Positions 8,301-23,062 of a DNA stretch of 34,370 nt are shown here, one piece after another. Within the stretch, counting starts at the first letter, position 1; each line of letters opens with the position of its first letter. The translations under genes were made by a program, and so were the position numbers. Source of the DNA: Ignavibacteriales bacterium (lineage in GTDB: Bacteria > Bacteroidota > Ignavibacteria > UBA10030); NCBI GenBank assembly GCA_016193365.1, contig JACPSI010000046.1, forward strand, positions 1 through 34,370, in the 5' to 3' direction. The notes under the pieces were generated by a model that ran no database searches, had not been told where the DNA came from, and saw only the letters and a program-made list of their open reading frames with translations.

Positions 8301-9584
8301 GTGATGACGTCCGCGCAATCCCTTCAGGAAGAAACCCAACGGCTCAAAAGAGCTGTCGAAGAGCTTTCCATTTTGAACGACCTTGCGCGCGCCATCGGCA
8401 GCACGTTGAACCTTGAAGAGATCATGCAGACGATTATCCGCCGCTCTCTTCGCGCGGTCCAGGCTGAACAGGGCGTTATTACGCTTGTCGACAAGAAAAA
8501 CAGCGAGCCAACAAAAACGCTCGTCCGGGCCATGGTGAGCTCCAGCGACCATGTGGAATTCCATCTTCATCAGGCATTGCTCGGATGGATGCACCTGAAC
8601 ATGAAACCTCTGTTGGTCGACAACCCTAAACAGGATGAACGATTCCGCGGCGTGCGGTGGGACGAGTCCGTGAATTCCCTGCTCTGTGTTCCCTTGCTGG
8701 TGAAGTCCGAACTCCGTGGCGTGTTAACAGTTTATAATAAGAAGGACGTCAACAAATTCAACGCCGACGACCAACGCCTGCTCGCGATCATCGCGGCGCA
8801 GTCCGCACAGGTCATTGAAAACGCCCGCCTCTATGACGAGGAAAAACATTATCTCAAAATGCAGGAAGAAGTCCGGCTTGCGGCAAAGATTCAAATGGAC
8901 CTGTTGCCGAACGAAATGCCCAAGCTCGACGCCTATGAGATCGTGGGAAAGACAATTCCTGCCCAAACGGTCGGCGGAGATTATTTTGACTTTATCAGGG
9001 TCGACGGCGACCGTCTTGCCATTTGCCTGGGAGACGTGACCGGTAAGGGCCTTCCCGCTTCCCTCCTGATGGCGAACCTCCAGGCAACACTCCGCGGGCA
9101 GACGCTTGTTGCACGCGAACCCCGTGAGTGTCTCACCCGCTCGAACAAGCTGCTCTACGAAAGCACGAGCCCGGAAAAATTCGCGACCTTGTTCTACGGA
9201 ATTCTGGACAACAAGCGTCATGCGATGTCCTTTTCCAACGCCGGCCACGACCATCCTTTCCTCATTTCCGCAGACGGGTCGGTGAAGCGGCTGGGCACGG
9301 GAGGGATGATGCTGGGTGCATTCGATTCGTTTTCTTTTGAAGATGAGAATGTGCTGATTCAGCCTGCAGACATGCTCGTCATTTACTCAGACGGCATTCC
9401 GGAAGCCATGAACACGTCCGGGGAACAATATAGCGAAGAGCGTTTGACAAAGTTTTTGGTCGAACACCGTAACCTTACACCGAATGGATTGCTCGAAAGT
9501 TTGGTGCGTGAGGTCCGGGAGTATGCCGGGGCCCAGCCGCAATCTGACGACATGACCATCGTCATTATCAAAAGAGCGCCATGA
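8301..9584 (+). CDS. GAF-domain PP2C phosphatase, RsbU/SpoIIE type
   Basis: This 427-residue cytoplasmic protein has a short coiled-coil N-terminus (about 5-25), a GAF sensor domain (about 28-180), a linker helix, and a SpoIIE-type PP2C phosphatase domain (about 195-425). Metal-binding motifs are present: GGDYFDF, GDVTGKGLPASLL, YSDGIPEAM and SDDMTIVI. Such enzymes dephosphorylate a STAS anti-anti-sigma protein and so release it to bind its RsbW kinase. A matching STAS/RsbW pair lies 6 kb downstream. The start is GTG at 8301 with an ATG one codon later, so the exact start is ambiguous by one residue. Its stop overlaps the next kinase start (ATGA at 9581-9584), implying coupled synthesis of phosphatase and kinase. 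Confidence 0.88.
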   Translation: MMTSAQSLQEETQRLKRAVEELSILNDLARAIGSTLNLEEIMQTIIRRSLRAVQAEQGVITLVDKKNSEPTKTLVRAMVSSSDHVEFHLHQALLGWMHLNMKPLLVDNPKQDERFRGVRWDESVNSLLCVPLLVKSELRGVLTVYNKKDVNKFNADDQRLLAIIAAQSAQVIENARLYDEEKHYLKMQEEVRLAAKIQMDLLPNEMPKLDAYEIVGKTIPAQTVGGDYFDFIRVDGDRLAICLGDVTGKGLPASLLMANLQATLRGQTLVAREPRECLTRSNKLLYESTSPEKFATLFYGILDNKRHAMSFSNAGHDHPFLISADGSVKRLGTGGMMLGAFDSFSFEDENVLIQPADMLVIYSDGIPEAMNTSGEQYSEERLTKFLVEHRNLTPNGLLESLVREVREYAGAQPQSDDMTIVIIKRAP

Positions 9585-11905
9585 TTGGAAAAACGATACT
9601 CCATTACAAGATCCTCGAGCAACTGGGCGAGGGGGGCATGGGTGTCGTGTACAAAGCGCTCGACCTGAAACTCGACCGCCATGTGGCATTGAAGTTCCTG
9701 CCGCCGCATCTGCTCAAATCACAGGAAGATGTGACACGCCTTGAGCAGGAAGCAAGGGCCCTTTCAACGCTCAACCATCCCAACATCGCAACGATTCACG
9801 ATATCGAGCAGCCGGAGGGACAGGTATTTCTCGACCTCGAGTATCTCCCCGGAGGAACGCTGAGGACAAAACTTGAAGAGTTCAAAGAATCCGGCCGCTC
9901 CTTTTCCACGCAACGAATCCTGCGGTATGGTGTCGAGATCCTTGAAGGTCTGAGCCACGCGCATCGACGGGGAATTATTCACCGCGACGTGAAGACCGAC
10001 AACATGATGCTCACCGACGACGGAAGGGTTAAAATCACCGACTTTGGACTGGCGAAATTCAAAGGCAAGCCCACGCTGGAGAAAGGCCACACGGTGGGCA
10101 CTGTCGCCTACATGTCTCCCGAGCAAATCCGCGGGGAAGAGATTGACCATCGGTCGGACCTTTTTTCCTTCGGCATTGTCCTGTTCGAGTTACTGACGGG
10201 GCAGTTCCCCTTCCGGGGCGAACATGAAGCAGCTTTTGGATACTCTATTCTTAATGAGGCTCCTCTTTCGGGAAAATCTTTGCGTCCCGACATGCCTGAA
10301 TCGTTGGAAGGAATCATTGCACGGTGCCTTCAAAAAAGAAAAGAAGATCGGTATCAGTCTGCGGATGAAGTTCTTCATGAGCTCAGGACAGTCCTCCATC
10401 GCGCAGAGGGATACGCCATCCCAAAAAACCTTGCCCGAGTCCTTCGGCCATTGGTCGTAGCGGTTTTGCTGCTAGTTCTCGTCGGCGGATATTTCCTGTT
10501 GAAGAGCCCTTCCGGGGTTCCCGCCCAGCAATCGATCGTTGTCCTTCCTTTCGCCAATTTGAGCGACGCAAAGGATGATGAATACTTCAGCCGCGGCATG
10601 ACCGAAGACATCATCACCCAGCTCTCAAAAACCAGCAACCTGCGGATCATCTCCTTCACGTCCTCACTTGACAGAGAAGGGAAGACTCAGAAAATTCAGT
10701 CTGAGGTGAGCAAGTCCGGTGTCACGGCAGTTCTTCAAGGGAGCGTACGGAAGGCTGAAAACCGTGCGCGCATCACCGCTCAGCTTATGGATGCTGTGTC
10801 GAACGCGACGCTCTGGGCGGAGACTTACGACAGGGAATTAAAAGATATTTTCGACGTTCAAAACGAGGTGGCGTCTCGCATTGCGTCTGCACTTCAATCG
10901 AAGCTTTCATCCAACGAACCACCCGAGCCTGCCTCAGCCCAGAAAGAAGACATTGAGGCATACAACCTTTACCTGCAGGGGCGATATTTTTGGAACAAGC
11001 GAACGGCTGAGGGCCTGAACAAGGCCATCGAGTATTTCCAGCTCGCAATCGAAAAGGACCCCTCCTACGCACGCGGATACGCCGGCCTGGCGGACGCCTA
11101 CGTCGTTCTCGCTTCCAACACGTTTGCTCCTCCAAACGATGTTATGCCGAAAGCAAAAGCAGCAGCAACAAAAGCACTGAGCCTCGACAACGCGCTGACC
11201 GAAGCGCATGCTTCCCTCGCGATGGTAGCCTTTTGGTTCGAATGGGACAAAGCAACCGCGGAGAGGGAATTCAAAAAAGCAATCGAGCTGAATCCAAACT
11301 ACGCGACGGCGCGTCAGTGGTACGCCTGGTTTCTGGCTACTACTGGGCACTCGAAAGAGGCAATCCAGGAGATTACGAAAGCACGGGACCTCGAGCCCCT
11401 CTCTTTGATCATCAACACAGAGGTCGGCGCCATTCATTATTTCGCGGGCTCTTTTGAACAGGAGATCGAGCATTACCGGCGCACTCTTGAAATGGACCCG
11501 ACATTCGCCCTTGCGCACATGCATCTGGGGTTTGCCTACCTTGCAGACGAGAATTACGGCGATGCGATTCGAGAGCTTGAATCCGCCGTTCGGTTGTCGG
11601 ACAACAACCCGACTATGGTCGCGGCGCTGGGGAGTGCCCTGGCTGAAGCGGACAAACGCGATCTGGCAGAACAATTCTTTGCCCTTCTTGTAAAGATGTC
11701 CAAAGAAAAATATGTCTCGCCAGCGCACCTTGCCGGGCTTAGTGCTGCTCTCGGCCGGAAAGATGAAGCAATCTCCTACTTGAACAAAGCCCTCGATGAG
11801 AGGTCAACCTCGCTCGTCTGGATAAAGATGGGAAGAGGTTTCGCCTCGCTCAGGTCCGACCCCAGGTTTACTACATTCCTGGCCAAGATTACGCTGGAAA
11901 AATGA
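9581..11905 (+). CDS. Transmembrane Ser/Thr kinase with TolB-like and TPR domains (kinase 1)
   Basis: This 774-residue protein has a eukaryotic-type kinase domain (about 9-275) with glycine loop GEGGMG, VALK lysine (K38), HRDVKTDN (catalytic D136), DFG (154-156), MSPEQ and RSDLFSFG. It is therefore predicted active. One membrane helix follows (about 289-307). The outer part starts with SIVVLPFANLS and GMTEDIITQLSK, a TolB N-terminal-like fold (about 318-440) also seen in cyclase and kinase receptors. TPR-type helical repeats fill about 455-760, with signatures such as DPSYARGYAGLADAY and DPTFALAHMHLGFAYL. The kinase domain faces the cytoplasm and the TPR region the periplasm. It is translationally coupled to the phosphatase gene. 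Targets are unknown; the STAS protein downstream is one possibility. Confidence 0.88.
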   Translation: MIGKTILHYKILEQLGEGGMGVVYKALDLKLDRHVALKFLPPHLLKSQEDVTRLEQEARALSTLNHPNIATIHDIEQPEGQVFLDLEYLPGGTLRTKLEEFKESGRSFSTQRILRYGVEILEGLSHAHRRGIIHRDVKTDNMMLTDDGRVKITDFGLAKFKGKPTLEKGHTVGTVAYMSPEQIRGEEIDHRSDLFSFGIVLFELLTGQFPFRGEHEAAFGYSILNEAPLSGKSLRPDMPESLEGIIARCLQKRKEDRYQSADEVLHELRTVLHRAEGYAIPKNLARVLRPLVVAVLLLVLVGGYFLLKSPSGVPAQQSIVVLPFANLSDAKDDEYFSRGMTEDIITQLSKTSNLRIISFTSSLDREGKTQKIQSEVSKSGVTAVLQGSVRKAENRARITAQLMDAVSNATLWAETYDRELKDIFDVQNEVASRIASALQSKLSSNEPPEPASAQKEDIEAYNLYLQGRYFWNKRTAEGLNKAIEYFQLAIEKDPSYARGYAGLADAYVVLASNTFAPPNDVMPKAKAAATKALSLDNALTEAHASLAMVAFWFEWDKATAEREFKKAIELNPNYATARQWYAWFLATTGHSKEAIQEITKARDLEPLSLIINTEVGAIHYFAGSFEQEIEHYRRTLEMDPTFALAHMHLGFAYLADENYGDAIRELESAVRLSDNNPTMVAALGSALAEADKRDLAEQFFALLVKMSKEKYVSPAHLAGLSAALGRKDEAISYLNKALDERSTSLVWIKMGRGFASLRSDPRFTTFLAKITLEK

Positions 11906-11948: not shown

Positions 11949-12095
11949 ATGATAGGGCAAACAGTATCCCACTATAGAATCCTGGAAAAGCTCGGCAAAG
12001 GCGGAACGTCCCAAAATTCCCTGCGAGCGCTTTGTGCGAGCAACTGGAATTTTGCGGATCCGACGAAACGAAGCTTAGGCGGAGGCGTGTTATGA
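11949..12095 (+). pseudogene. Decayed kinase N-terminus, now a 48-codon leader ORF
   Basis: From ATG 11949 the first 20 codons (MIGQTVSHYRILEKLGKGGT) match the start of kinase 2 almost residue for residue, and kinase 1 less closely. They also share a GGAGGCG-like leader. Similarity stops inside the glycine-rich loop, where GMG should follow, and is replaced by a short segment holding an inverted repeat. The frame then runs to a TGA at 12093-12095 that overlaps the kinase 2 ATG (ATGA). This looks like a truncated duplicate. As it stands, it could be translated as a leader peptide coupled to kinase 2. Confidence 0.65.
12012..12054. repeat. Inverted repeat in the kinase remnant
   Basis: CAAAATTCC (12012-12020) and GGAATTTTG (12046-12054) are perfect 9-bp inverted arms around a 25-base centre. 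The centre contains GCGAGC twice. The element starts just where homology to the kinase gene ends, so it may be a small inserted palindromic repeat. Other copies are not visible in this window, so its repetitive nature is unproven. Confidence 0.5.
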
Positions 12096-14659
12096 TCGGC
12101 CAAACTATATCTCACTATAAGATCCTCGAAAAACTCGGCGAAGGAGGAATGGGTGCCGTCTACAAGGCCGAAGACACCAAGCTCCGCCGATCCGTGGCCT
12201 TAAAATTCCTTACTCCTGAAATGACTCGCGACAAAGAAGCCAAAAGTCGCTTCATCCAGGAAGCTCAGGCAGCATCGGCGCTCGACCATCCGAATATCGC
12301 CGTCGTACACGAAATCGACGACACAGATGATGGACGCTCGTTCATTTGTATGGCATACTACGACGGCAAAACTCTCAAGGATCAGATTGAAGAAGGGCCT
12401 TTCGGGATCGATAAAGCAATCCGTGTGTCCATTCAAATTGCGGACGGCCTGCAGCGAGCTCATGAAGCCGGCATCGTTCATCGCGATATCAAGCCGGCAA
12501 ATATTATACTTACAGAGCGAGGCGACGTGAAGATTGTCGACTTCGGCGTGGCAAAACTCTCATCGCAAACGCGCGGAAGTTCAACCACCACTGGCGGGAC
12601 AGCGGCGTATATGTCTCCCGAGCAGGCACAGGGTATAAACGTGGATGCCAGAAGCGATTTATTTTCGCTCGGTGTCGTGATGTACGAAATGGTGACAGGC
12701 AAAAGACCCTTTGTTGCTGAGCATGAGGCCGCCCTGATGTATTCCATTGTGAACATCGAACCGTCCCCGCTCTCGGCTGTTCGGCAAGACATTTCAAAAG
12801 AAGTCGAAGCCGTTATTCTCAAACTTCTCGAGAAGGATCCATCAAAGAGATATCAAACCGCTTCTGAAGTCCGGTCGCAGCTGAGACATCTGATCGGGTT
12901 TACGGAATCCACCCGAAAGTTCCTTCTCCAGCCGAACATCATCGTCGATAGAAAGTTGGTCATCTCCGCAGCGATTCTTGTCATCCTCGCCGCAATCATC
13001 GCTTTTCCGAAAACAAGAAATATGGCTGAGCGATTGTTGGGCCTGGGTGCCATCCCGGCGGAAAAATATGTCGCCGTCCTCCCTTTCAGCGCCGTCGGCG
13101 GCGACTCAGCAAGCCAGGCATTTTGCGACGGCCTCATGGAAACTCTCACCAGTAAATTGACACAGCTGCAAAAACCTAAGACGGCGTACTGGGTGGTTGC
13201 TGCAAGTGAAATCCGCCAACGTAAGGTGTCGAGTCCCACCGACGCCGGGAAGTCGTTTGGGGTCACGCTCGCCGTCACCGGCAGTGTTCAACGCCGTGAC
13301 CATCAGGTTCGCGTAACGATAAACCTTGTTGAAGCCGCTACGGGAAAACAGCTCGAATCAGCCATTATCGACAAGTACCTCACCTCTCTTGCCGATTTGC
13401 AGGACGAAGCAGCTCTTACAGTTGCAGAAATGTTTGGTCTCGAAATCCAGCCACAGGACCTCCAGGTGTTGTCAGCAGGCAAGACTCTCGCTTCGCAAGC
13501 CTATCATTTCTATCTGCAAGGCCGCGGGTATTTGCAGAATTATCAGAAAGTATCAAACATCGACCTTGCCGTCCAAATGTTTCAGAACGCCCTGAAAGAG
13601 GACTCGATGTACGCACTTGCGTATGCCGGTCTCGGAGAGGCATACTGGCGAAAATTCGAGGCGACCAAGGATAAGCAGTGGGTCACTCCTGCCGTCCATT
13701 CCGTGGACAAAGCCATTCGTCTCAATGATCAACTTGCTCCGATTCATTTTACGATGGGATTGGTTCAAAAAGGCACGGGAGACTACGATGGGGCCGTCAT
13801 CGAGTTTCAAAGGACTATTGAATTAGACAGCCTCAATGGTGACGCTTATCGTGAACTGGCCGACACCTACGTGCGGCAACAGAGTCTGTTCTTTGCAGAG
13901 GCCACGTTCAAAAAATCGATCGGCATGAAGCCATCGTACTGGGCGGGTTACAGTGATTTGGGAGGATTCTATTATCGTCAAAAGCGATACGACGAAGCAA
14001 TACAACAGTTCCAACGTGTCGCAGAGTTAACTCCCGATAACGCTCGCGTCTATAGTGCCCTTGGCGGAACTTATTTTGCCGCGGGCAAACCGGCTGAAGC
14101 CGTTGAATTCCTCGAGAAATCGGTGTCGATGGAGCCAACCCATGCAGGGTTTTCAAATCTCGCAACGCTATATTTCTTTGACCGAAGCTATGCAAACGCT
14201 ATTCGGTCATATGAAAAAGCTCTTGCCTTAAACGACAAGGATTACCGTGTGTGGGGAAATCTGGCTTCATGCTATTTTTGGTCAGGCCAGCGCGCACAGG
14301 CTATGAGAAACTTTGAACGTGCTGTTGAAAAAGCTGAGGAATTACGGAAGGTCAATCCGCGCGATGCTGTCGTGTTGAGCCATCTCGCTGATTACTATTC
14401 AATGCTCGGCAAGATGACTCAGGCCCTCAGCCTTATCGGCCAGTCGCTGAAACTTGCACCGGAAGCTGTGGACATCATCAGACGTTCCGCAGACGTCTAC
14501 GAACAGATTGGACAACGCGACCAGGCGTTCAGGCAACTTGAGCTGGCACTACGAAAAGGAACAACGTTGCAGGAACTTGAACGCGCACCGGCGTTGAAAG
14601 AGTTGCGCTCTGACCCACGCTACAAGAGTTTGGTTGAACGACAGGGCAAAAAGCCCTAA
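12092..14659 (+). CDS. Transmembrane Ser/Thr kinase with TolB-like and TPR domains (kinase 2)
   Basis: Start chosen at ATG 12092 because the kinase fold begins there (MIGQTISHYKILEKLGEGGMG) and GGAGG lies about 7 bp upstream; a 20-codon extension from 12032 is not family-like. The 855-residue protein has an active-looking kinase domain: K38 in VALK, HRDIKPAN with D132, DFG at 150-152, MSPEQ. A membrane helix spans about 288-305. A TolB-like segment follows (YVAVLPFSAVGGDSA then GLMETLTSKL, about 325-450). A long TPR array fills about 470-840, with units such as DSMYALAYAGLGEAYW and PDNARVYSALGGTYFAAG. Same architecture as kinase 1, so the pair likely arose by duplication. The periplasmic TPR region suggests protein sensing in the envelope. 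Substrate unknown. Confidence 0.88.
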   Translation: MIGQTISHYKILEKLGEGGMGAVYKAEDTKLRRSVALKFLTPEMTRDKEAKSRFIQEAQAASALDHPNIAVVHEIDDTDDGRSFICMAYYDGKTLKDQIEEGPFGIDKAIRVSIQIADGLQRAHEAGIVHRDIKPANIILTERGDVKIVDFGVAKLSSQTRGSSTTTGGTAAYMSPEQAQGINVDARSDLFSLGVVMYEMVTGKRPFVAEHEAALMYSIVNIEPSPLSAVRQDISKEVEAVILKLLEKDPSKRYQTASEVRSQLRHLIGFTESTRKFLLQPNIIVDRKLVISAAILVILAAIIAFPKTRNMAERLLGLGAIPAEKYVAVLPFSAVGGDSASQAFCDGLMETLTSKLTQLQKPKTAYWVVAASEIRQRKVSSPTDAGKSFGVTLAVTGSVQRRDHQVRVTINLVEAATGKQLESAIIDKYLTSLADLQDEAALTVAEMFGLEIQPQDLQVLSAGKTLASQAYHFYLQGRGYLQNYQKVSNIDLAVQMFQNALKEDSMYALAYAGLGEAYWRKFEATKDKQWVTPAVHSVDKAIRLNDQLAPIHFTMGLVQKGTGDYDGAVIEFQRTIELDSLNGDAYRELADTYVRQQSLFFAEATFKKSIGMKPSYWAGYSDLGGFYYRQKRYDEAIQQFQRVAELTPDNARVYSALGGTYFAAGKPAEAVEFLEKSVSMEPTHAGFSNLATLYFFDRSYANAIRSYEKALALNDKDYRVWGNLASCYFWSGQRAQAMRNFERAVEKAEELRKVNPRDAVVLSHLADYYSMLGKMTQALSLIGQSLKLAPEAVDIIRRSADVYEQIGQRDQAFRQLELALRKGTTLQELERAPALKELRSDPRYKSLVERQGKKP

Positions 14660-14693
14660 CAACAATCACATTCCAAACCAAGGGAGGCGACCC

Positions 14694-15023
14694 ATGGTAC
14701 ATCCAAACAAGTATCAAACCGGACAGCTGATTAGAGTGTTCTGTCCCACCAGCAATGGTTGCATCGTTGATCCGGGATCCGTTCAAGTTGGCACAGCAGC
14801 CATAGATGTTGAATGGAGAAACGAAACGCAGGACGAAATAGAAGTGTTCGTTCTTTCCCGTCATCTCGGTAGACCCAAACCGATCACAATCAATCCGAGT
14901 GATACTGGTAGAATCAAGGTTCACCCAAAGGTACCAACGGGCAGGTTCACCTACGCCATTTACTGTCATCAAACAAACAGCTTTGCCGTCGGCGGCTCGG
15001 AGCCAGAAATGATTGTGCCGTAG
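14694..15023 (+). CDS. Small beta-rich protein of unknown function
   Basis: Start chosen at ATG 14694 because AGGGAGGCG lies 3-11 bp upstream; the longer frame would overlap the end of kinase 2. The 109 residues are almost all beta-strand-like, with no signal peptide and no membrane segment. Sequence near 50-90 (VEWRNETQDEIEVFVLS, then SDTGRIKVHPKVPTGRFTY) and the end YAIYCHQTNSFAVGGSEPEM recall a cupredoxin-like sandwich, but a proper copper set is not evident. It lies between kinase 2 and the RsbW-like gene in the same direction with short gaps, so it probably belongs to the same signalling unit. I do not recognise the family. The CDS call is good and the fold is a weak guess. Confidence 0.7.
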   Translation: MVHPNKYQTGQLIRVFCPTSNGCIVDPGSVQVGTAAIDVEWRNETQDEIEVFVLSRHLGRPKPITINPSDTGRIKVHPKVPTGRFTYAIYCHQTNSFAVGGSEPEMIVP

Positions 15024-15033
15024 CAGGCGTTCC

Positions 15034-15438
15034 ATGCAAAAATCGTTTACGCGCTCGACAAAAGCTCTCGATGAAATTTTTGATTTTATCGGGACATTTT
15101 TTCGCGAACATAAAGTTGGCAAAGAGGTTGCGTTTTCGATTAAGTTTGCGGTCGAAGAGCTTTTCACGAACTTTGTGAAATACAACCTCACCAGCAAGTC
15201 AGAGATCTCTCTTAACCTCTCGATAGAGGGAAAGAACCTTGTTGTTCGCCTGATGGATTCAGAAGCGCAGCCGTTCGATCCGACGAAAGCCCCCGACCCC
15301 GACCTGCACGCACCTCTGGAACAGCGCCGGGCCGGGGGGCTTGGAATCTTTCTTGTGAAGCGGATGATAGATAAAATTGAATACCATCATACTGATAAAA
15401 TGAGTACTATTACCCTCGTGCAATCGCTGGAGAAGTAA
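15034..15438 (+). CDS. RsbW-like anti-sigma regulatory kinase (HATPase_c_2)
   Basis: This 134-residue single-domain GHKL ATPase-type protein has N-box FAVEELFTNFVKY (about 36-48, with E and N metal and ATP residues), G1-like LMDSEAQPFDP (about 75-85) and G2-like RRAGGLGIFLVKRMID (about 99-114). Proteins of this type bind a sigma factor or another target and phosphorylate a STAS partner on serine. Start 15034 was chosen because the domain begins with the following strand; seven extra upstream codons overlap the previous gene. The STAS gene starts one base after its stop, the classic RsbW/RsbV pairing though in the reverse order. The target is not shown: no sigmaB-type factor is present, only an ECF factor. 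Confidence 0.88.
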   Translation: MQKSFTRSTKALDEIFDFIGTFFREHKVGKEVAFSIKFAVEELFTNFVKYNLTSKSEISLNLSIEGKNLVVRLMDSEAQPFDPTKAPDPDLHAPLEQRRAGGLGIFLVKRMIDKIEYHHTDKMSTITLVQSLEK

Positions 15439-15439
15439 C

Positions 15440-15724
15440 ATGTTCAAGATTATGCTGGATAATCAGGGAATTGTTCGTCTTCAGGGCAGACTCGATGCAT
15501 CCCAGGCAGAAGAAGCTACGAAAGAGCTTTTGAAGGTCACGAAGTCTGCTGTCGTAGATTTCCGGGAACTCGAATACATCTCAAGCGCCGGGCTGGGCGT
15601 CCTGATCGCCGCTCAAAAAAGGCTGAAAGAATCGGGCCATAGCCTGACACTCACAAACATGAACAACCATATCCGTGACGTCTTTCGCTACGCTCGATTT
15701 GACCTGATCTTCAAGGTCGAATAA
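15440..15724 (+). CDS. STAS-domain anti-anti-sigma factor (RsbV/SpoIIAA-like)
   Basis: This 94-residue protein is a lone STAS domain. The phospho-acceptor loop is EYISSAGLGVLIAAQKRL (about 48-65), in which one of the two serines before AGLG is the expected RsbW phosphorylation site. In the unphosphorylated state it should capture the RsbW-like kinase encoded one base upstream. The two SpoIIE phosphatases at 8301 and 21755 are candidate activators. A GGAGAAG ribosome-binding site lies in the last codons of the preceding gene, so translation is coupled. No sensor domain is attached. Confidence 0.9.
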   Translation: MFKIMLDNQGIVRLQGRLDASQAEEATKELLKVTKSAVVDFRELEYISSAGLGVLIAAQKRLKESGHSLTLTNMNNHIRDVFRYARFDLIFKVE

Positions 15725-15823: not shown

Positions 15824-16360
15824 ATGAATGATAAGTCCGATTCCGTTCTGGTCAAGGAGTGCCTGTCGGGGATCAAAAAGTCGTTTGAAATCTTGGTCGA
15901 CAGGTATCAGAAGCCTGTCTTTAACGTTGCCTTCAGAATCATCAATAATTATGACGACGCAGCCGAGATTGCTCAAACAACGTTCATCAAAGCTTTCGAA
16001 AACCTTAGCACCTTTGACACCAAACGTAAGTTCTTCAGCTGGCTGTACCGCATTGCGACAAACGAGTCGCTGAACTATCTCAAAGCGCGAAAACAACATG
16101 AACTGCTCAGCGATGACCATGTTTCACACGACCAGACGCCGGACGAGAAGTTTGACGACGCTGAGAGTGATGAACAACTCCAGACTGCACTCATGCAATT
16201 GAACCCTGATTACAGAATTGTCCTGGTTCTCTGCCATTTTCACAATCTATCATACAAAGAAATCAGTTCGATTTTGGATGTTCCTGAAAAAACCGTCAAA
16301 TCAAGATTATTCTCAGCTCGCAAGAACCTTAAGGAACTTCTCGAACGAGAGAACATATGA
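15824..16360 (+). CDS. ECF-type RNA polymerase sigma factor
   Basis: This 178-residue protein has sigma region 2 (about 20-90): YQKPVFNVAFRI, DDAAEIAQTTFIKAFENL, FFSWLYRIATNESLNYLK. Region 4 (about 125-175) has LNPDYRIVLVLCHFHNLSYKEISSILDVPEKTVKSRL, a helix-turn-helix for the -35 element. There is no region 3, which fits the ECF class. It is separated from the STAS gene by 99 bp. I find no convincing promoter there, so either readthrough or an autoregulated ECF promoter is possible. Its stop overlaps the start of the repeat-bearing membrane gene (ATGA at 16357-16360), the usual layout for an ECF sigma and its anti-sigma factor. The regulon is unknown. Confidence 0.93.
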   Translation: MNDKSDSVLVKECLSGIKKSFEILVDRYQKPVFNVAFRIINNYDDAAEIAQTTFIKAFENLSTFDTKRKFFSWLYRIATNESLNYLKARKQHELLSDDHVSHDQTPDEKFDDAESDEQLQTALMQLNPDYRIVLVLCHFHNLSYKEISSILDVPEKTVKSRLFSARKNLKELLERENI

Positions 16361-17478
16361 CTATGACCGACCCCGATAATTTCGACCATATTTTTGAATT
16401 AATGAACAAAGAGATCGACGGAGTGAACTCGAAAAAAGAGAGCGCTGAGCTCAAACGGCATTTGCAAAAACACGCGGACTCAGCACGATACTTTAAAAAA
16501 CTCCAGTCTATTTCTAAAAGACTTGGCCGTGTCAAAGCCGTGACTCCTCCTTCCTACTTGAGGACAACGATTGTCAATTCCATTTATGCTCCGAAAAAAT
16601 TCACTGAAGCTCAACAGTCTGTTTGGGATACTGTCATAAGCAAATTCACTCAACTCTTATTCACCAACAAGGAGGCTTCTATGGAACAAACCCCGACGAA
16701 CCTGTTTACAGGAAAGAAAGGGATCTTCGTCCTGAGTGGCGCCATCGTTGCAGTTGTGGCGATCGTGTATCTTGCCGGTCTCTATCCGCCAGCGGACACG
16801 GAAGATGCGGTGGGCACGATTGGCGGCGTGCAAAAAGCAAAGAAGTATCGTTCTGAACAAATCGCCGAAAAAGACGTTGTCCTGAAGAACGAGAAAAACG
16901 CACGCGTCATCCAGAGCGACAAGTTTCAGAAACTTAACAAGAACGATAGATTCCAGAAAATCGCCAAAGACGCTTCTTTCCAGGAATTGCTCAAAGATGC
17001 AGCTTTCCAGGAACTGCTGAAGGACGCAGCTTTCCAGGAGCTGTTAAAAGATGCGGCCTTCCAGGAGCTTCTGAAGGATGCTGCGTTTCAAGAACTCATG
17101 AAGGATGCGGCGTTTCAGGAACTTGCCAAAGATGCCGCTCATGCTGAACTCATGAAGGATGCCGCGTTCCAGGAACTGATGAAAGATGCCGCATACCAGG
17201 AACTCATGAAGGACGCTGCTTTTCAGGAACTCATGAAAGACGCCGCCTTTGCGGAGCTCCTCAAAGATGCTGCTTTCCAGGAACTTTTGAAGGACGCAGC
17301 TTTCCAGGAATTGCTGAAAGACGCTGCCTTTCAGGAACTGCTCAAGGACGCAGCTTTTCAAGAACTCTTGAAGGATGCCGCATTCCAAGAACTCTTAAAA
17401 GACGCCGCGTTTCAGGAGCTCATGAAAGATGCCGCGTTCCAGGAACTGATGAAGGACGCTGCGAAAGAAGCGTACTAA
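16357..17478 (+). CDS. Membrane anti-sigma candidate with 18 tandem nonapeptides
   Basis: This 373-residue protein overlaps the ECF sigma gene by 4 bp. Residues 1-75 resemble a zf-HC2-type anti-sigma head, but the HxxxCxxC zinc site reads HLQKHADS (35-42), with both cysteines lost. One membrane helix spans about 122-144, placing the head in the cytoplasm. After a charged linker and two looser units (about 188-204), residues 205-366 are 18 exact 9-residue units of consensus DAAFQELLK, with Leu/Met/Ala at position 8, ending DAAKEAY. No Pro or Gly occurs in the array, so it should be strongly helical and periplasmic. An internal ATG at 16681 (residue 109) has a perfect Shine-Dalgarno and could give a 265-residue product without the head. 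The anti-sigma role is inferred from position and topology. I recognise no family for the repeats. Confidence 0.8.
   Translation: MTMTDPDNFDHIFELMNKEIDGVNSKKESAELKRHLQKHADSARYFKKLQSISKRLGRVKAVTPPSYLRTTIVNSIYAPKKFTEAQQSVWDTVISKFTQLLFTNKEASMEQTPTNLFTGKKGIFVLSGAIVAVVAIVYLAGLYPPADTEDAVGTIGGVQKAKKYRSEQIAEKDVVLKNEKNARVIQSDKFQKLNKNDRFQKIAKDASFQELLKDAAFQELLKDAAFQELLKDAAFQELLKDAAFQELMKDAAFQELAKDAAHAELMKDAAFQELMKDAAYQELMKDAAFQELMKDAAFAELLKDAAFQELLKDAAFQELLKDAAFQELLKDAAFQELLKDAAFQELLKDAAFQELMKDAAFQELMKDAAKEAY
16669..16675 (+). promoter_or_regulatory. Strong internal Shine-Dalgarno in the repeat gene
   Basis: AAGGAGG (16669-16675) stands 5 bases before an in-frame ATG at 16681, much better than the signal at the annotated start 16357. 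It would initiate a 265-residue protein that keeps the membrane helix and the repeats but lacks the anti-sigma-like head. Confidence 0.6.
16969..17454 (+). repeat. 18 tandem 27-bp coding repeats (DAAFQELLK)
   Basis: Eighteen in-frame units of 27 bp encode DAxxxELxK, mostly DAAFQELLK or DAAFQELMK. The most divergent unit is DAAHAELMK (residues 259-267). Codons for Ala, Leu, Lys and Asp vary freely between units while the residues hardly change. This indicates selection on the protein rather than very recent DNA slippage, although a few neighbouring units are still similar at DNA level. Confidence 0.97.
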
Positions 17479-17695: not shown

Positions 17696-20650
17696 ATGCA
17701 ACGTGTTCAAAAAATTCTCGCTGCTTTTGCGTACGCCTGGTTGTTACAGTCAGCGCCTGCGTTTTCACAGCTGAGCTCCCTTGAAACAAAAAACCTCCGC
17801 CTCATTTCGTATGACCGGTCTCATGCTTTTGTCGTGCCGCATCTGGCGCGGTGCTTCGAAAATGCCTTTCGCTTTCATTCAAAGTTGTTCAGCTACACGC
17901 CGACCGAGGAAGTGACCCTGCTGTTGCAGGATTTCGGCGATTACGGCAACGGCGGTGCGACGGCGGTTCCCTTCAACTTGATTAGCGTGGGAATATCTCC
18001 CTTCCACTACGCGTACGAAACAAGCCCAGCGAACGAGCGGATGAACGCCTTGATGAATCATGAGCTCGTTCATATCGTCGCTCTTGACCGCGCTTCTGAA
18101 TCTGACAGGCTTTTCCAATCTCTTTTTTCAGGCAAGATTGTCCCAACGCGCGAGAATCCCCTCTCCATGCTTTACAGCTATCTCACAACACCCCGACGTT
18201 ATTCGCCGAGGTGGTATCATGAGGGCATCGCGTCGTTTCTCGAGACGTGGATGGACGGCGGCATTGGAAGAGCGCTTGGGGCTTATGACGAAATGGTTTT
18301 TCGAACCATGGTTCGTGACAGCGCTTATATCTACGATTATGTCGGGCTGGAGTCGGAGGGTACGACAATCGATTTCCAGGTGAAAGCAAACTCCTACCTT
18401 TACGGAACACGGTTCATGAACTTTGTAGCCTACCAGTACGGTCCCGAGCGGCTGATTCAGTGGGTTTCACGCACGGATGAGAGCCGGAGGTTCTTTGCTT
18501 CGCAGTTCGAGCATGTGTTCGGGGTCAGCCTGGAGCAAGCCTGGTCAGACTGGATTACGTTTGAGCGTCGATGGCAACAGGCGAACCTTGATTCGATTCG
18601 GCTCCATCCGGTCTCCCGGCACAGAGAGCTTTCACCGCAGACACTCGGCTCTGTCTCACGGGCGTTTTATGACAAATCTCAGAAAAAAATCTACGCAGCC
18701 ATCAATTATCCCGGCCAGGTCGCTCATATCGCCGCGATGAAAATCGATGACGGTGCCGTTGAACACATCTGTGACGTCAAAGGAGGTGCATTGTATTATG
18801 TGTCTTCGCTCGCCTATGATTCCTCGTCACGCGTTCTGTTCTATACGACGGATAACAATAAATGGCGCGATCTCAACATGGTTGACGTGGAAACGGGGGT
18901 GTCGAAACTGTTGATTCAGGACGCCCGGACGGGAGACCTCGCGTTCAATCACGCCGACAAATCCCTCTGGGGAGTTCGGCACTTCATAGGATTCTCCACG
19001 CTGGTTCGTATCCCGCCGCCCTACACAGACTGGAACCAGGTGTATACACTCCCCTACGGAAAAGATTTATTTGACATCGACATTGCGGCCGACGGAAAAA
19101 CGTTAACGGGAGCTCTTGCGGAAGTGAGCGGAAATCAGAAACTCATACAGATGGACATTCAGAAACTCATGAAAGGAGACCATTCCTCGGAAATCATCTT
19201 TGATTTTGACAGCAATTCTCCGGCGACGTTCGTCTTCTCGCCCGACGGGAGGTTTTCGTTCGGCACTTCGTACTATAGCGGTGTTTCAAACATTTTTCGA
19301 TATGATTTCGAGAAAAAATCCATGGTTGCACTCACGAACTGCGAAACAGGGTATTTCCGTCCGATTCCGGTTTCTGATGACTCCCTTATCGCGTTTAATT
19401 ATACCGGGACTGGATTCGTGCCGGTGATGCTTACGAACAGAGAACAGGAACATGTCAGCGCAATTAACTTTTTAGGGCAGGCTGTTGTCGAGCGACATCC
19501 CATTGTGACTCAATGGAAATTGGATCCGCCCTCTGAGTCGTCCATCAACATCGATTCGCTGACAACATACTCAGGCGAGTATCGCCCTATTGACCACATT
19601 AAGGTCACATCATTGTACCCGATGGTAGAGGGCTACAAAGATTTTGCCTCGTTCGGTTTGCGGATGAATGCGTCCGACCCGATTCTGATCAACGAAATCG
19701 ACCTCAGCACATCTTATTCACCGAACGCTTTGCTTCCGGCCGGAGAACGGCTTCACGCGCGGTTGAATCTTCACTCGTGGCGCTGGAGGTTCCTTGCGAC
19801 GTACAATGCTGCAGATTTTTATGACCTTTTCGGGCCGACGAAGACAAGCAGGAAGGGGTATTCGGCCGGCGTTCAGTACAGAGAATTCCTCGTCTTTGAC
19901 GAACCGAAAACCATGGATTATCTCGTCACGGGGAGTGCCTATTGGGGGCTGGAGCGTCTCCCTGATTTTCAAAACGTCTCTATCAAATCATTCGACAGGT
20001 TCCTATCGGTCAGCGGAAGGCTAAACTATCAGTATTTCATGCGTTCCATCGGAGCCGTAGAAGAGGAAACGGGATTCCGATGGCAGATGATAAGCCACAA
20101 TAATTATGTCAATGGGGTTTTGTTTCCACGGCTCCTCAGTAATCTCGACTACGGTTTTCTCTTGCCGGTGAGTCATTCTTCCATTTGGCTGCGAGGCTCG
20201 TCGGGGTATTCTTTTGGGGAGCGTGAAGAAGCGTTCGCAAAGTTCTATTTCGGAGGGTTTGGAAACAACTGGATTGATTACCTCGATTCGAAGCGCTTTC
20301 GCGAGTACTACAGTTTTCCGGGCGTGGAACTCAACGAAATTGGAGGAACGAATTACGGTAAACTCACGCTTGAATGGACTCTCCCGCCCCTCCGATTTCG
20401 ACGATTTGGCGTTCAGAGTTTTTACATGAATTGGATGCACCTTTCCTTGTTCGCCTCCGGGCTCTCCACAAACTTCGACAATCCATCCCTCAAGCAGACT
20501 GCTGTGAACGTCGGCGGACAGCTTGATTGCAAACTCGTGATGTTTTCAACGCAGGAATCTACCCTATCGTTCGGCTATGCCGTCGCCTGGCGGGATCATC
20601 TTCCGTCATCAACGAAGGAGTTCATGATTTCATTGAAACTGCTCAAATGA
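17696..20650 (+). CDS. Secreted gluzincin-like metalloprotease with propeller and barrel-like C-terminus
   Basis: This 984-residue protein has a signal peptide (about 1-24, ending PAFSQ). A peptidase_MA-like domain (about 30-300) carries NHELVHIVAL, an HExxH zinc motif at 122-126, and the downstream RWYHEGIASFLE with E176 as the likely third ligand. Then come WD40/TolB-like propeller strands (about 310-620), with segments such as FSPDGRFSFGTSYYSG. The last third (about 660-984) alternates aromatic and polar residues and ends in a hydrophobic strand (EFMISLKLLK), as in outer-membrane barrels. It should act at the outer membrane or in the periplasm. Position between the repeat anti-sigma candidate and a PrsW homologue suggests a role in envelope sensing, but this is inferred. 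The substrate is unknown. Confidence 0.78.
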   Translation: MQRVQKILAAFAYAWLLQSAPAFSQLSSLETKNLRLISYDRSHAFVVPHLARCFENAFRFHSKLFSYTPTEEVTLLLQDFGDYGNGGATAVPFNLISVGISPFHYAYETSPANERMNALMNHELVHIVALDRASESDRLFQSLFSGKIVPTRENPLSMLYSYLTTPRRYSPRWYHEGIASFLETWMDGGIGRALGAYDEMVFRTMVRDSAYIYDYVGLESEGTTIDFQVKANSYLYGTRFMNFVAYQYGPERLIQWVSRTDESRRFFASQFEHVFGVSLEQAWSDWITFERRWQQANLDSIRLHPVSRHRELSPQTLGSVSRAFYDKSQKKIYAAINYPGQVAHIAAMKIDDGAVEHICDVKGGALYYVSSLAYDSSSRVLFYTTDNNKWRDLNMVDVETGVSKLLIQDARTGDLAFNHADKSLWGVRHFIGFSTLVRIPPPYTDWNQVYTLPYGKDLFDIDIAADGKTLTGALAEVSGNQKLIQMDIQKLMKGDHSSEIIFDFDSNSPATFVFSPDGRFSFGTSYYSGVSNIFRYDFEKKSMVALTNCETGYFRPIPVSDDSLIAFNYTGTGFVPVMLTNREQEHVSAINFLGQAVVERHPIVTQWKLDPPSESSINIDSLTTYSGEYRPIDHIKVTSLYPMVEGYKDFASFGLRMNASDPILINEIDLSTSYSPNALLPAGERLHARLNLHSWRWRFLATYNAADFYDLFGPTKTSRKGYSAGVQYREFLVFDEPKTMDYLVTGSAYWGLERLPDFQNVSIKSFDRFLSVSGRLNYQYFMRSIGAVEEETGFRWQMISHNNYVNGVLFPRLLSNLDYGFLLPVSHSSIWLRGSSGYSFGEREEAFAKFYFGGFGNNWIDYLDSKRFREYYSFPGVELNEIGGTNYGKLTLEWTLPPLRFRRFGVQSFYMNWMHLSLFASGLSTNFDNPSLKQTAVNVGGQLDCKLVMFSTQESTLSFGYAVAWRDHLPSSTKEFMISLKLLK

Positions 20651-20662
20651 TGTTCCTTCGTC

Positions 20663-21685
20663 ATGTCCTCTTCGGTTTTTGATTACTCGCTGAACGTCAG
20701 CGTCAGCCTCGCTCCCGTCTTCCTTTTTCTGGCAGCTCTGATTCTTCTGGACAGCTACAAACTTGTGAAACTCCGGGAAGTTCTTTTTACCATTTTCATC
20801 GGATGTCTGGTTGCCATTGTGGTGTACTTTGTCAATCAGTTTGCGTTGGAGTCTCTCAAAATCGACGTGTCCGTGTACGCCCGATACGGGGCTCCTCTCA
20901 TTGAAGAGCTCTTTAAGGTGATTTACCTTGTTTTCCTACTGAGGGCTCACCGTGTTGGGTTTATGGTGGACGCGGCCATTTACGGGTTCGCCATCGGAGC
21001 GGGATTTGCCTTTGTGGAAAACATCTACTACCTGCAGTCCATTAGTGAATCGAGCCTTTTTGTCTGGATTATCCGGGGGTTCGGCACTGCCGTTATGCAT
21101 GGCGGAACGACATCGATCTTTGCAACAATGTCCAAGAACTTCGCCGATGCGAGAGGATCCGAGCACGTCACGGTCTTCATTCCGGGTCTGGCTACAGCCG
21201 TCATCATTCACTCGTTCTTCAATCATTTCTTTTTGCCCCCGTTGATGTCAGCGGTGAGTGTCCTCCTCTCGCTGCCTTTGATTATGCTTCTGGTATTCCA
21301 CCAAAGCGAGCGTGCGACACGTAGCTGGCTTGGTGTGGGGTTTGATTCAGATGCTGAACTCCTGAAAATGATTATCACAGGGGATGTGGCAAAAACCCGG
21401 ATCGGCGAATATCTGCAGATTCTGCAGACTCGTTTCCGCGGCGAAACAGTCGCCGACCTTTTGTGCTATCTGCGCATCTATCTGGAGCTCTCGATTCAGG
21501 CAAAGGGAGTTCTCATGATGCGACAGGCCGGCTTCGACGTGCCCCCGGATGCGGATATCAAAGCTAAATTTGACGAACTGCAATTCCTCAGGAAAAGCAT
21601 TGGAAAGACTGGACAGCTCGCCATGTCTCCTTTTGTCCGGACGAAGGGGAGGGATTTGTGGCAATTACAAATGCTTCAGAAATAG
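20663..21685 (+). CDS. PrsW-family intramembrane metalloprotease
   Basis: This 340-residue protein has several membrane helices in its first 220 residues. The PrsW signatures are present: EELFK (81-85, the EExxK motif), GFAIGAGFAFVEN (108-120, with E119), and histidines in AVMHGGTT (H146) and IIHSFFNHFF (H183, H188). In Bacillus subtilis PrsW makes the first cut in the anti-sigma factor RsiW, and in Clostridioides difficile it acts on RsiT. Here it starts 12 bp after the gluzincin gene and 3.2 kb after an ECF/anti-sigma pair, so that pair is a natural candidate substrate. The C-terminal 110 residues are soluble, helical and not part of the core family. The ribosome-binding site is weak. Confidence 0.88.
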   Translation: MSSSVFDYSLNVSVSLAPVFLFLAALILLDSYKLVKLREVLFTIFIGCLVAIVVYFVNQFALESLKIDVSVYARYGAPLIEELFKVIYLVFLLRAHRVGFMVDAAIYGFAIGAGFAFVENIYYLQSISESSLFVWIIRGFGTAVMHGGTTSIFATMSKNFADARGSEHVTVFIPGLATAVIIHSFFNHFFLPPLMSAVSVLLSLPLIMLLVFHQSERATRSWLGVGFDSDAELLKMIITGDVAKTRIGEYLQILQTRFRGETVADLLCYLRIYLELSIQAKGVLMMRQAGFDVPPDADIKAKFDELQFLRKSIGKTGQLAMSPFVRTKGRDLWQLQMLQK

Positions 21686-21704
21686 TGCATATCAAGCGGC
21701 TACG

Positions 21705-21713
21705 TGTTATATT
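21705..21713 (+). promoter_or_regulatory. Extended -10 promoter candidate
   Basis: TG-T-TATATT at 21705-21713 is a good extended -10 element, 42 bp before the ATG chosen for the second GAF-SpoIIE gene. No clear -35 was found. It supports the downstream start (21755) over the GTG at 21704. Confidence 0.35.
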
Positions 21714-21754
21714 GGTTACCCTCTGAAAAGCCCAAAGCAGGTTGCAAAGCCTCG

Positions 21755-23062
21755 ATGCGAAAGACTAAAGTCCGCATTCTTAAGCCAGCCCAGTTGAAGA
21801 AATCACGGCCGGGTACCAACACCTACATTCGGCGCCTGGAATACCTCATTGAAGCTTCGAAGCAGCTGAACACGACTTTCGACCTTGAAAAGCTTCTTGG
21901 TATTATTCTGAACCTTGCCCTTCGCAACCTGGATGCAGAAAGGGGAACGATTTATCTCATCGATGAAGAGAGGAGAGAGCTGTGGTCGAAAGTGCTCAAG
22001 GGAGCCCGGCTCGTGGAAATCCGACTACCTATCGGAACAGGAATTTCCGGTTACGTTGCGAAAACAGGAAAAACCGTGCTGATCAGCGATGCCAGCAAGG
22101 ACAAACGCTTCTATTCAGGGATCGATAAGAAATCGGGCTTCCAGACGAAAACCATGCTATGCATGCCGATGAGAAATCGGTCCAAAAAAATCATAGGTGT
22201 TTTTCAAATCATCAACAAGAAGCAGGGACAATTCAGCGAAGAGGATAAGCTCTTCCTCGCAGCGTTCTCCGACCATGCAGCGTTGGCAATCGAAAACGCA
22301 CGCCTCCATTTGGCAAGCCTGGAAAAAGAGCGCGTGGAGCGCGAGCTTTCCATTGCGGCTGAAATTCAGCAGCGATTGCTTCCGGAGCAACTTCCAGCGA
22401 TCAAACAATACGACGTTGCGGCGGCGGCCTTTCCATGCCGGACCATCGGAGGTGATTTTTACGATGTTGTGGAGCTGGACGACCACAGGTTTGCCATCGT
22501 TATGGCGGATGTCTCAGGAAAGGGGATTCCCGCCTCTCTCCTAGTTTCAACCCTTCACGCATCCTTTCGTGCCTACATCCAGGCACAAACCGACCTCGCA
22601 GCGTTGGTGACAAGGCTCAATAAAGTCGTGTACGACAACACCACGCCCGACAAGTTTATCACGTTCTTTATCATGATCCTCGATGTGCATAGCCACACCG
22701 TGAATTATGTGAACGCAGGCCATAATTCGCCGTTTCTTTTTCGGGGAAACAATGGAAAGATTGAAGAGCTCGCTGCAAGCGGTTTGCCACTCGGAATGAT
22801 CGGCGATAGTGAGTACACTGCCTCTACGCTTCAACTCGAGGCTCATGACGTCGTCGTACTCTACACCGACGGAGTGACAGAAGCAATGGACAAATCTCAA
22901 AATCAGTATGGCGAGGATCGCTTCCGGCATTGCATTTCAAGTTCGCTGGAATCAGCGGCGGTTGCGTTGAAAGATAAAATCCTCGTCGATGTTCGTGAAT
23001 TTGTCGGACTGGAACCTGCGTCAGATGACCTTACTCTTCTCGTCGCAAAGCGGATGAATTAG
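21755..23062 (+). CDS. Second GAF-domain PP2C phosphatase, RsbU/SpoIIE type
   Basis: Start chosen at ATG 21755 (435 residues). A GTG at 21704 would add 17 residues that look unlike the family and overlap a promoter-like sequence. A basic N-terminus (about 1-25) is followed by a GAF domain (about 30-185), with RGTIYLIDEERRELWSKV and LPIGTGISGYVAKTG, the latter typical of GAF domains beside output modules. The SpoIIE phosphatase domain (about 200-433) carries IGGDFYDV, MADVSGKGIPASLL, YTDGVTEAM and SDDLTLLV, so the metal-binding set is complete. It should dephosphorylate a STAS protein; the only one here is at 15440. It has the same architecture as the enzyme at 8301, but the GAF sequences differ enough to suggest a different input signal. 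Confidence 0.88.
   Translation: MRKTKVRILKPAQLKKSRPGTNTYIRRLEYLIEASKQLNTTFDLEKLLGIILNLALRNLDAERGTIYLIDEERRELWSKVLKGARLVEIRLPIGTGISGYVAKTGKTVLISDASKDKRFYSGIDKKSGFQTKTMLCMPMRNRSKKIIGVFQIINKKQGQFSEEDKLFLAAFSDHAALAIENARLHLASLEKERVERELSIAAEIQQRLLPEQLPAIKQYDVAAAAFPCRTIGGDFYDVVELDDHRFAIVMADVSGKGIPASLLVSTLHASFRAYIQAQTDLAALVTRLNKVVYDNTTPDKFITFFIMILDVHSHTVNYVNAGHNSPFLFRGNNGKIEELAASGLPLGMIGDSEYTASTLQLEAHDVVVLYTDGVTEAMDKSQNQYGEDRFRHCISSSLESAAVALKDKILVDVREFVGLEPASDDLTLLVAKRMN

Follow-up and report, generated by a model that had tools for sequence, protein, structure and literature searches.

A candidate anti-sigma factor with a nonapeptide-repeat arm, encoded in a conserved operon with an ECF sigma factor, a predicted outer-membrane protein and a PrsW-family protease

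The known Gram-negative designs that report the state of the outer membrane to a cytoplasmic sigma factor, such as RseA/DegS and the FecR/TonB receptors, are few. The Dma anti-sigma factors of Bacteroides represent one more, in which an anti-sigma domain, a transmembrane segment, a disordered tether and the protein's own barrel extend from the inner to the outer membrane (PMC13088901). In the RsgI-SigI system from B. subtilis, the extracytoplasmic region is described as sensing the wall and gating intramembrane proteolysis (PMC10202637). The locus described here, from an Ignavibacteriales bacterium, holds an ECF sigma gene followed by a candidate anti-sigma gene with a long repeat arm. It lies in a stretch of 34,370 nucleotides, hereafter the window, where the genes of interest are:

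15013..15438, + strand: RsbW-like anti-sigma/serine kinase (HATPase_c_2; PF13581, E 1.3e-19), at the same place upstream of STAS and ECF genes in most relatives
15440..15724, + strand: STAS anti-anti-sigma protein (PF13466, E 2.7e-16), a conserved neighbour
15824..16360, + strand: ECF sigma factor (PF08281, 4.6e-18; PF04542, 4.1e-16), with SigW as the nearest NCBIfam model (NF007223, 131 bits, below cut-off)
16357..17478, + strand: candidate anti-sigma/arm fusion protein of 373 aa, from the sequence and the relatives' loci
17696..20650, + strand: predicted outer-membrane protein (OMP) with a signal-peptide-like N-terminus, gluzincin motif (HELVH...WxxE), propeller and Omp85-like barrel
20663..21685, + strand: PrsW-family intramembrane protease (PF13367, E 1.8e-21), with the catalytic EExxK, ENxYY and His motifs present
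21704..23062, + strand: GAF-SpoIIE phosphatase (PF07228, 1.3e-52)

The conserved gene order runs from the RsbW-like kinase through STAS, ECF sigma, anti-sigma, arm protein and an OMP of ~985 residues to PrsW. The ECF-anti-sigma-arm-OMP arrangement is found in 40 loci, the window included, with the OMP directly after the arm, and PrsW comes next in 32 of the ~34 loci where the contig permits the check. Arm and OMP are again neighbours in a second genome set (Aminicenantes/Chrysiogenales), where some of the loci also contain PrsW. A few loci (L077, L096) have no PrsW gene close to the arm, none was found in L142-L144 or L147, and locus L087 lacks the OMP. The operon is widely conserved and apparently undescribed. 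The OMP, named from low-scoring family matches together with the motif, is 40-86% identical to 21-22 homologues, in which HExxH and the downstream Glu are invariant, and members of its family match Peptidase_MA_2, PD40 propeller and Omp85_2.

A partner-switching set (RsbW-like kinase, STAS and SpoIIE-type phosphatases, at 15013-15724, 8301-9584 and 21704-23062) adjoins the ECF sigma gene, and the kinase-STAS pair is kept beside it in most relatives; this RsbW/STAS pair of the same operon could, instead, control the sigma factor. Directly upstream of the operon are two Ser/Thr kinase-TPR proteins, at 9581-11905 (matching PknB models and TPR families) and 12032-14659 (Pkinase plus TPR). An ORF of 129 aa at 14634-15023 is seemingly the counterpart of a protein of 153 aa in locus L033 (3117-3578) that carries a twin-arginine-like signal, although the window ORF is an open frame without the start region of that counterpart.

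The candidate anti-sigma gene, P0001 (16357-17475 plus a stop to 17478), stands directly behind the sigma gene and, as the earlier note had reported, the two overlap by 4 bp (15824-16360 and 16357-17478). The following parts can be distinguished in it:

16384..16596, + strand: N-terminal putative sigma-binding domain (residues ~10-80), without Cys, homologous to the relatives' separate ~260-aa anti-sigma proteins and with a weak RsiW fold match
16669..16675, + strand: internal Shine-Dalgarno AAGGAGG, at the same place in most fused genes and with low silent divergence
16681..16683, + strand: internal ATG (Met109), the likely arm-only start, at the position where the separate arm gene of relatives begins
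16708..16779, + strand: single transmembrane helix, N-in/C-out by hydropathy and the positive-inside rule
16813..16884, + strand: juxtamembrane motif GTIGG..KYRSEQI..DVVL, with invariant T, G, Q and D in the alignment of relatives
16915..16968, + strand: two degenerate nonapeptide units, from unit analysis
16969..17454, + strand: 18-nonapeptide array (residues 205-366), each unit predicted to be one short helix from the repeats and AlphaFold

The note's proposal that P0001 is an anti-sigma candidate is consistent with its place beside the sigma gene, its weakly RsiW-like N-terminal domain, its one transmembrane segment and the presence of PrsW in the operon. Foldseek aligned the N-terminal domain with RsiW (5wuq) at a probability of 0.51 and a TMt of 0.63, but at an E of 8.3, which is weak, and the NCBIfam anti-sigma model NF052375 matched the window protein at E 1.7e-4, below its cut-off. 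P0001 has no Cys, and with it no HxxxCxxC zinc motif; this motif is absent from many anti-sigma factors. The positive-inside rule predicts an internal N-terminus and an external arm for each of 22 heads, and the arms are almost without Cys, which supports the extracytoplasmic arm that had been proposed.

In the head that the relatives share, a positively charged N-flank leads into a single membrane helix, then YPP/YPWP and GTIGG-x-KYRxxQIxxxDVxL; the arm follows. A search with the head profile returned one copy per positive genome, in 37 of 391 genomes of the class and 15 of 395 of the phylum, counts that include a few weak false matches, such as L095, a false positive whose protein we take to be BatA-like. 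The head also occurs in the second genome set, from Candidatus Aminicenantes and Chrysiogenales records (13/148 relatives).

The array comprises 18 consecutive nonapeptides in unbroken register, eight of them exactly DAAFQELLK, five DAAFQELMK and five with single or multiple variants; it is preceded by the two degenerate units (DKFQKLNKN and DRFQKIAK-) and followed by a short tail, DAAKEAY. The count of 18 in-register units made in the earlier note is borne out by the unit listing, by Tandem Repeats Finder (period 27 nt, 17.7 copies) and by a period-9 self-similarity of z = 48 over shuffled sequence. Its statement that the array follows a single membrane helix was right in that one helix precedes it, but not directly: ~60 residues separate the two, and these carry the family's conserved motif GTIGGVQKAKKYRSEQIAEKDVVL.

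Comparison of the units with one another gives pS 0.92 and pN 0.09. With most silent positions differing between the DNA units, the array can be neither newly expanded nor a product of misassembly. The congeneric ortholog (G001/L100) holds the same 18 units in identical order, with silent sites saturated and dN at 0.010 across the array, compared to a dN of 0.23 in the N-terminal domain. Judged by these rates, the array is therefore old, with an equal unit number in both members of the genus, and its protein sequence is under strong purifying selection, held more tightly than the putative sigma-binding domain. This selection on every unit argues against the reading of the repeats as a flexible or disordered tether, a mere spacer or wall-contact region like that of RsgI or the Dma tether, in which the sequence would be incidental. 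Disordered tethers do occur in Dma (PMC13088901), and the sequence and length of the unit change freely between genera, but the predicted helix-forming register is kept across phyla, and we regard a tether of this kind as rather improbable.

That register was defined in 23 nonapeptide arms, where ~82% of units begin with Ser, Asp, Asn or Thr, position 4 is hydrophobic, and positions 7 and 8 are mostly Leu, Ala or Met. In the relatives' nonapeptide arms, 207 of the 212 prolines fall at unit position 2, behind the N-capping Ser, Asp, Asn or Thr; the search for the register scored an N-cap at position 1 favourably but made no use of proline. A cap at position 1 with Pro at position 2 is the pattern expected of a helix N-cap and first turn, so each unit would begin a new helix. 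AlphaFold, run on the window protein with four sequences (array pLDDT 64-80), likewise predicts no rod but, in nearly every unit, a helix of 7 residues and a break of 2. The arm thus probably consists of very short helices strung together, not of a single rod, a build supported by fold prediction and by the proline pattern. The prediction for an Aminicenantes arm (ADRAFAGLM) had a low-confidence pLDDT of 37 and was left out of this support.

The earlier note had instead proposed one continuous helix of ~24 nm, acting as a ruler or strut that measures or spans the periplasm. The absence of Pro and Gly from the 18-unit array, which was correctly noted, would suit such a helix, as would the 18 units in both congeners and arm lengths that barely vary within a genus (297, 297 and 300 aa; 377 and 375 aa). 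Nevertheless, the monomer prediction that had been proposed as a check gave a helix broken in nearly every unit, and the relatives' prolines at unit position 2 mark a helix start in each. The comparison of copy number between relatives, one of the checks proposed beforehand, found repeats absent in some homologues and arms ranging from 190 to 881 aa, an outcome that the note itself had named as refuting its view. This spread, together with the arms that lack repeats, makes a fixed 24-nm ruler very improbable. The accompanying argument against a simple two-stranded coiled coil is consistent with the sequence. With an outer-membrane protein as the constant neighbour, a tether reaching toward the outer membrane may still apply.

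The arms are 190-423 residues long in the first genome set and 240-881 in the second, some of these lengths being cut by contig ends. Depending on the clade, the unit has 6, 9, 12, 16 or ~25 residues, and a few homologues have no repeat; unit sequence and unit length vary freely between genera, whereas arm length is nearly constant within a genus. Arms of 660-880 residues, up to about four times that of the window, occur in L140-L144 and L147 of the second set, and the first arm units (LLQND.VQ.LI.N-like) are conserved between both genome groups. The contigs of L078, L081, L106, L109, L034 and L035 end inside the arm gene, which suggests that assemblies break at the repeats and that the copy numbers of the arms are incompletely sampled. 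The distant arm proteins of the same operon in L084, L085, L086 and L088 hold non-periodic arms whose ends carry short NKEN/NQGIG-like motifs resembling beta repeats, and arm type therefore seems to have been swapped in evolution.

Short helices could also serve as a chaperone-like client sensor, in which they would form a hydrophobic groove like that of STI1/DP domains, bind unfolded outer-membrane proteins or hydrophobic segments, and signal envelope protein stress to the anti-sigma factor through the occupancy of the groove. In STI1/DP domains, short amphipathic helices separated by helix-breaking prolines (PMC8010706) make a groove for hydrophobic segments (PMC8010706, PMC13083928), and STI1-HOP_DP matches, lost after permuting the unit columns, were found in 7 of 38 arms (best 5.8e-19). 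The match in the window, however, scores 24.8 bits against a gathering threshold of 29.1, with no stretch passing alone, and some relatives exceed the gathering score, yet likewise with no stretch passing alone. Moreover, permuted arrays match other families at up to 6e-10, and the arm of L090 matches coagulation factor V repeats at 8e-29, so E-values for these repeats are inflated. Foldseek of the predicted structure against the PDB gave no significant match to the array. Client sensing through such a groove is accordingly considered unlikely, and STI1 membership was kept as a lead only, since the column-permutation control gave spurious matches of similar size to other families. Other Pfam/NCBIfam matches in the array (NblA, TPR_END, RatA and others) were rejected as repeat artefacts, with no stretch passing alone. 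The likeness of the SPDFSRLMA arm of L090 (7699-8826) to the nonapeptide repeats of human coagulation factor V is probably a chance resemblance between periodic sequences.

In many relatives, the anti-sigma factor (~260 aa, with its own transmembrane segment) and the arm protein are encoded by separate genes, while in others, including the window, they are fused. On the OMP tree, this label changes six times, with at least five changes forced by well-supported branches, and such repeated fusion and fission argues that arm and anti-sigma factor work jointly. Of the 19 fused genes, 15 retain an in-frame ATG with a Shine-Dalgarno sequence at the position where the separate arm gene starts, compared to 4 of 715 in-frame ATGs in the neighbouring OMP genes; part of this is due to the conserved residues K-E-A/V, synonymous shuffles giving an expectation of 6.4 of 19. 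Between the window gene and its ortholog, 3 of 24 silent sites are changed in codons 96-124, against 141 of 292 elsewhere (Fisher p 5e-4). The retention of both elements at the old start, together with the low silent divergence, makes an arm-only product likely. The conserved arm-only start, and the fact that arm and OMP remain adjacent where the anti-sigma gene is separate, would also fit an arm that serves the OMP as a partner in structure or outer-membrane assembly and whose fusion to the anti-sigma factor is a by-product of gene order. As fusion and fission recur, and always with the anti-sigma factor, we give this little credence.

The weakly RsiW-like domain, the PrsW gene and an ECF sigma factor near SigW make regulated intramembrane proteolysis the simplest model. 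We infer that the N-terminal domain would keep the ECF sigma factor in the cytoplasm, one membrane helix leading to a periplasmic arm of 18 two-turn helices, arranged as a nonapeptide solenoid or string. This arm, in cis here and in trans where the genes are separate, would sense the state of the outer envelope jointly with its likeliest partner, the neighbouring gluzincin/propeller/barrel protein. A disturbance of the arm, or of its contact with the OMP, would open the anti-sigma factor to cleavage by PrsW and thereby release the sigma factor, and the conserved internal start would additionally yield an arm-only protein. An RsiW/PrsW-type envelope-stress switch, with the periplasmic short-helix arm and its outer-membrane partner as the sensor, is a reading to which we would give an even chance. 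A fuller proposal is put forward more tentatively, namely a two-membrane sigma-signalling system in which a new nine-residue alpha-repeat arm would couple an outer-membrane metalloprotease/propeller/barrel to an ECF anti-sigma factor and PrsW, one gene giving both the anti-sigma-arm and the arm-only protein.

If true, this would be a further design for outer-membrane-to-sigma reporting, one that is not confined to a single phylum and whose operon unites every part, the presumed outer-membrane sensor and site-1 protease among them. Should the outer-membrane link hold, the whole arm-OMP-PrsW operon may merit more interest. The array would be a very small helical repeat, with a predicted 7-residue helix and a 2-residue turn, unmatched among the solved structures searched, and the natural series of arms, from ~20 to 90 units, is suited to learning if the signal depends on length, on sequence or on both.

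The earlier note had known of no anti-sigma factor with such an arm. No description of nonapeptide or nine-residue helical repeats in anti-sigma factors emerged from the literature searches, and neither Dma nor RsgI is described with this helical array, but both are functional precedents (PMC13088901, PMC10202637). Like Dma, the system seen here combines a candidate anti-sigma domain, one transmembrane segment and a long periplasmic reach with a predicted outer-membrane barrel. In Dma, the barrel belongs to the same chain and the tether is disordered, whereas here the array ends 7 residues before the C-terminus, leaving no C-terminal beta-barrel in the protein, the separate barrel protein carries a protease and a propeller, and the arm is predicted to be helical. 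RsgI senses with its outer part, as the arm would here; the present protein differs in its predicted helical nonapeptide array, its Gram-negative type of envelope and the lack of an RsgI_N domain, for which Pfam gave no match in the window protein. A further mark of the RsgI family is constitutive site-1 cleavage after which the two pieces remain associated. The arm shares its predicted short amphipathic helices with the STI1/DP domains of Hop, ubiquilin and Sgt2, which are described in eukaryotic cochaperones with ~5 helices per domain, unlike the 18 to ~90 uniform units found here. With RsiW-SigW-PrsW, the envelope-stress system of Bacillus subtilis, the locus has in common an ECF sigma factor, a single-pass anti-sigma factor with a weakly RsiW-like N-terminal domain, and a PrsW site-1 protease, here with a putative role. 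It differs from this system in the absence of zinc-site cysteines, in its long repeat arm and probable outer-membrane partner, and in having all parts in one operon.
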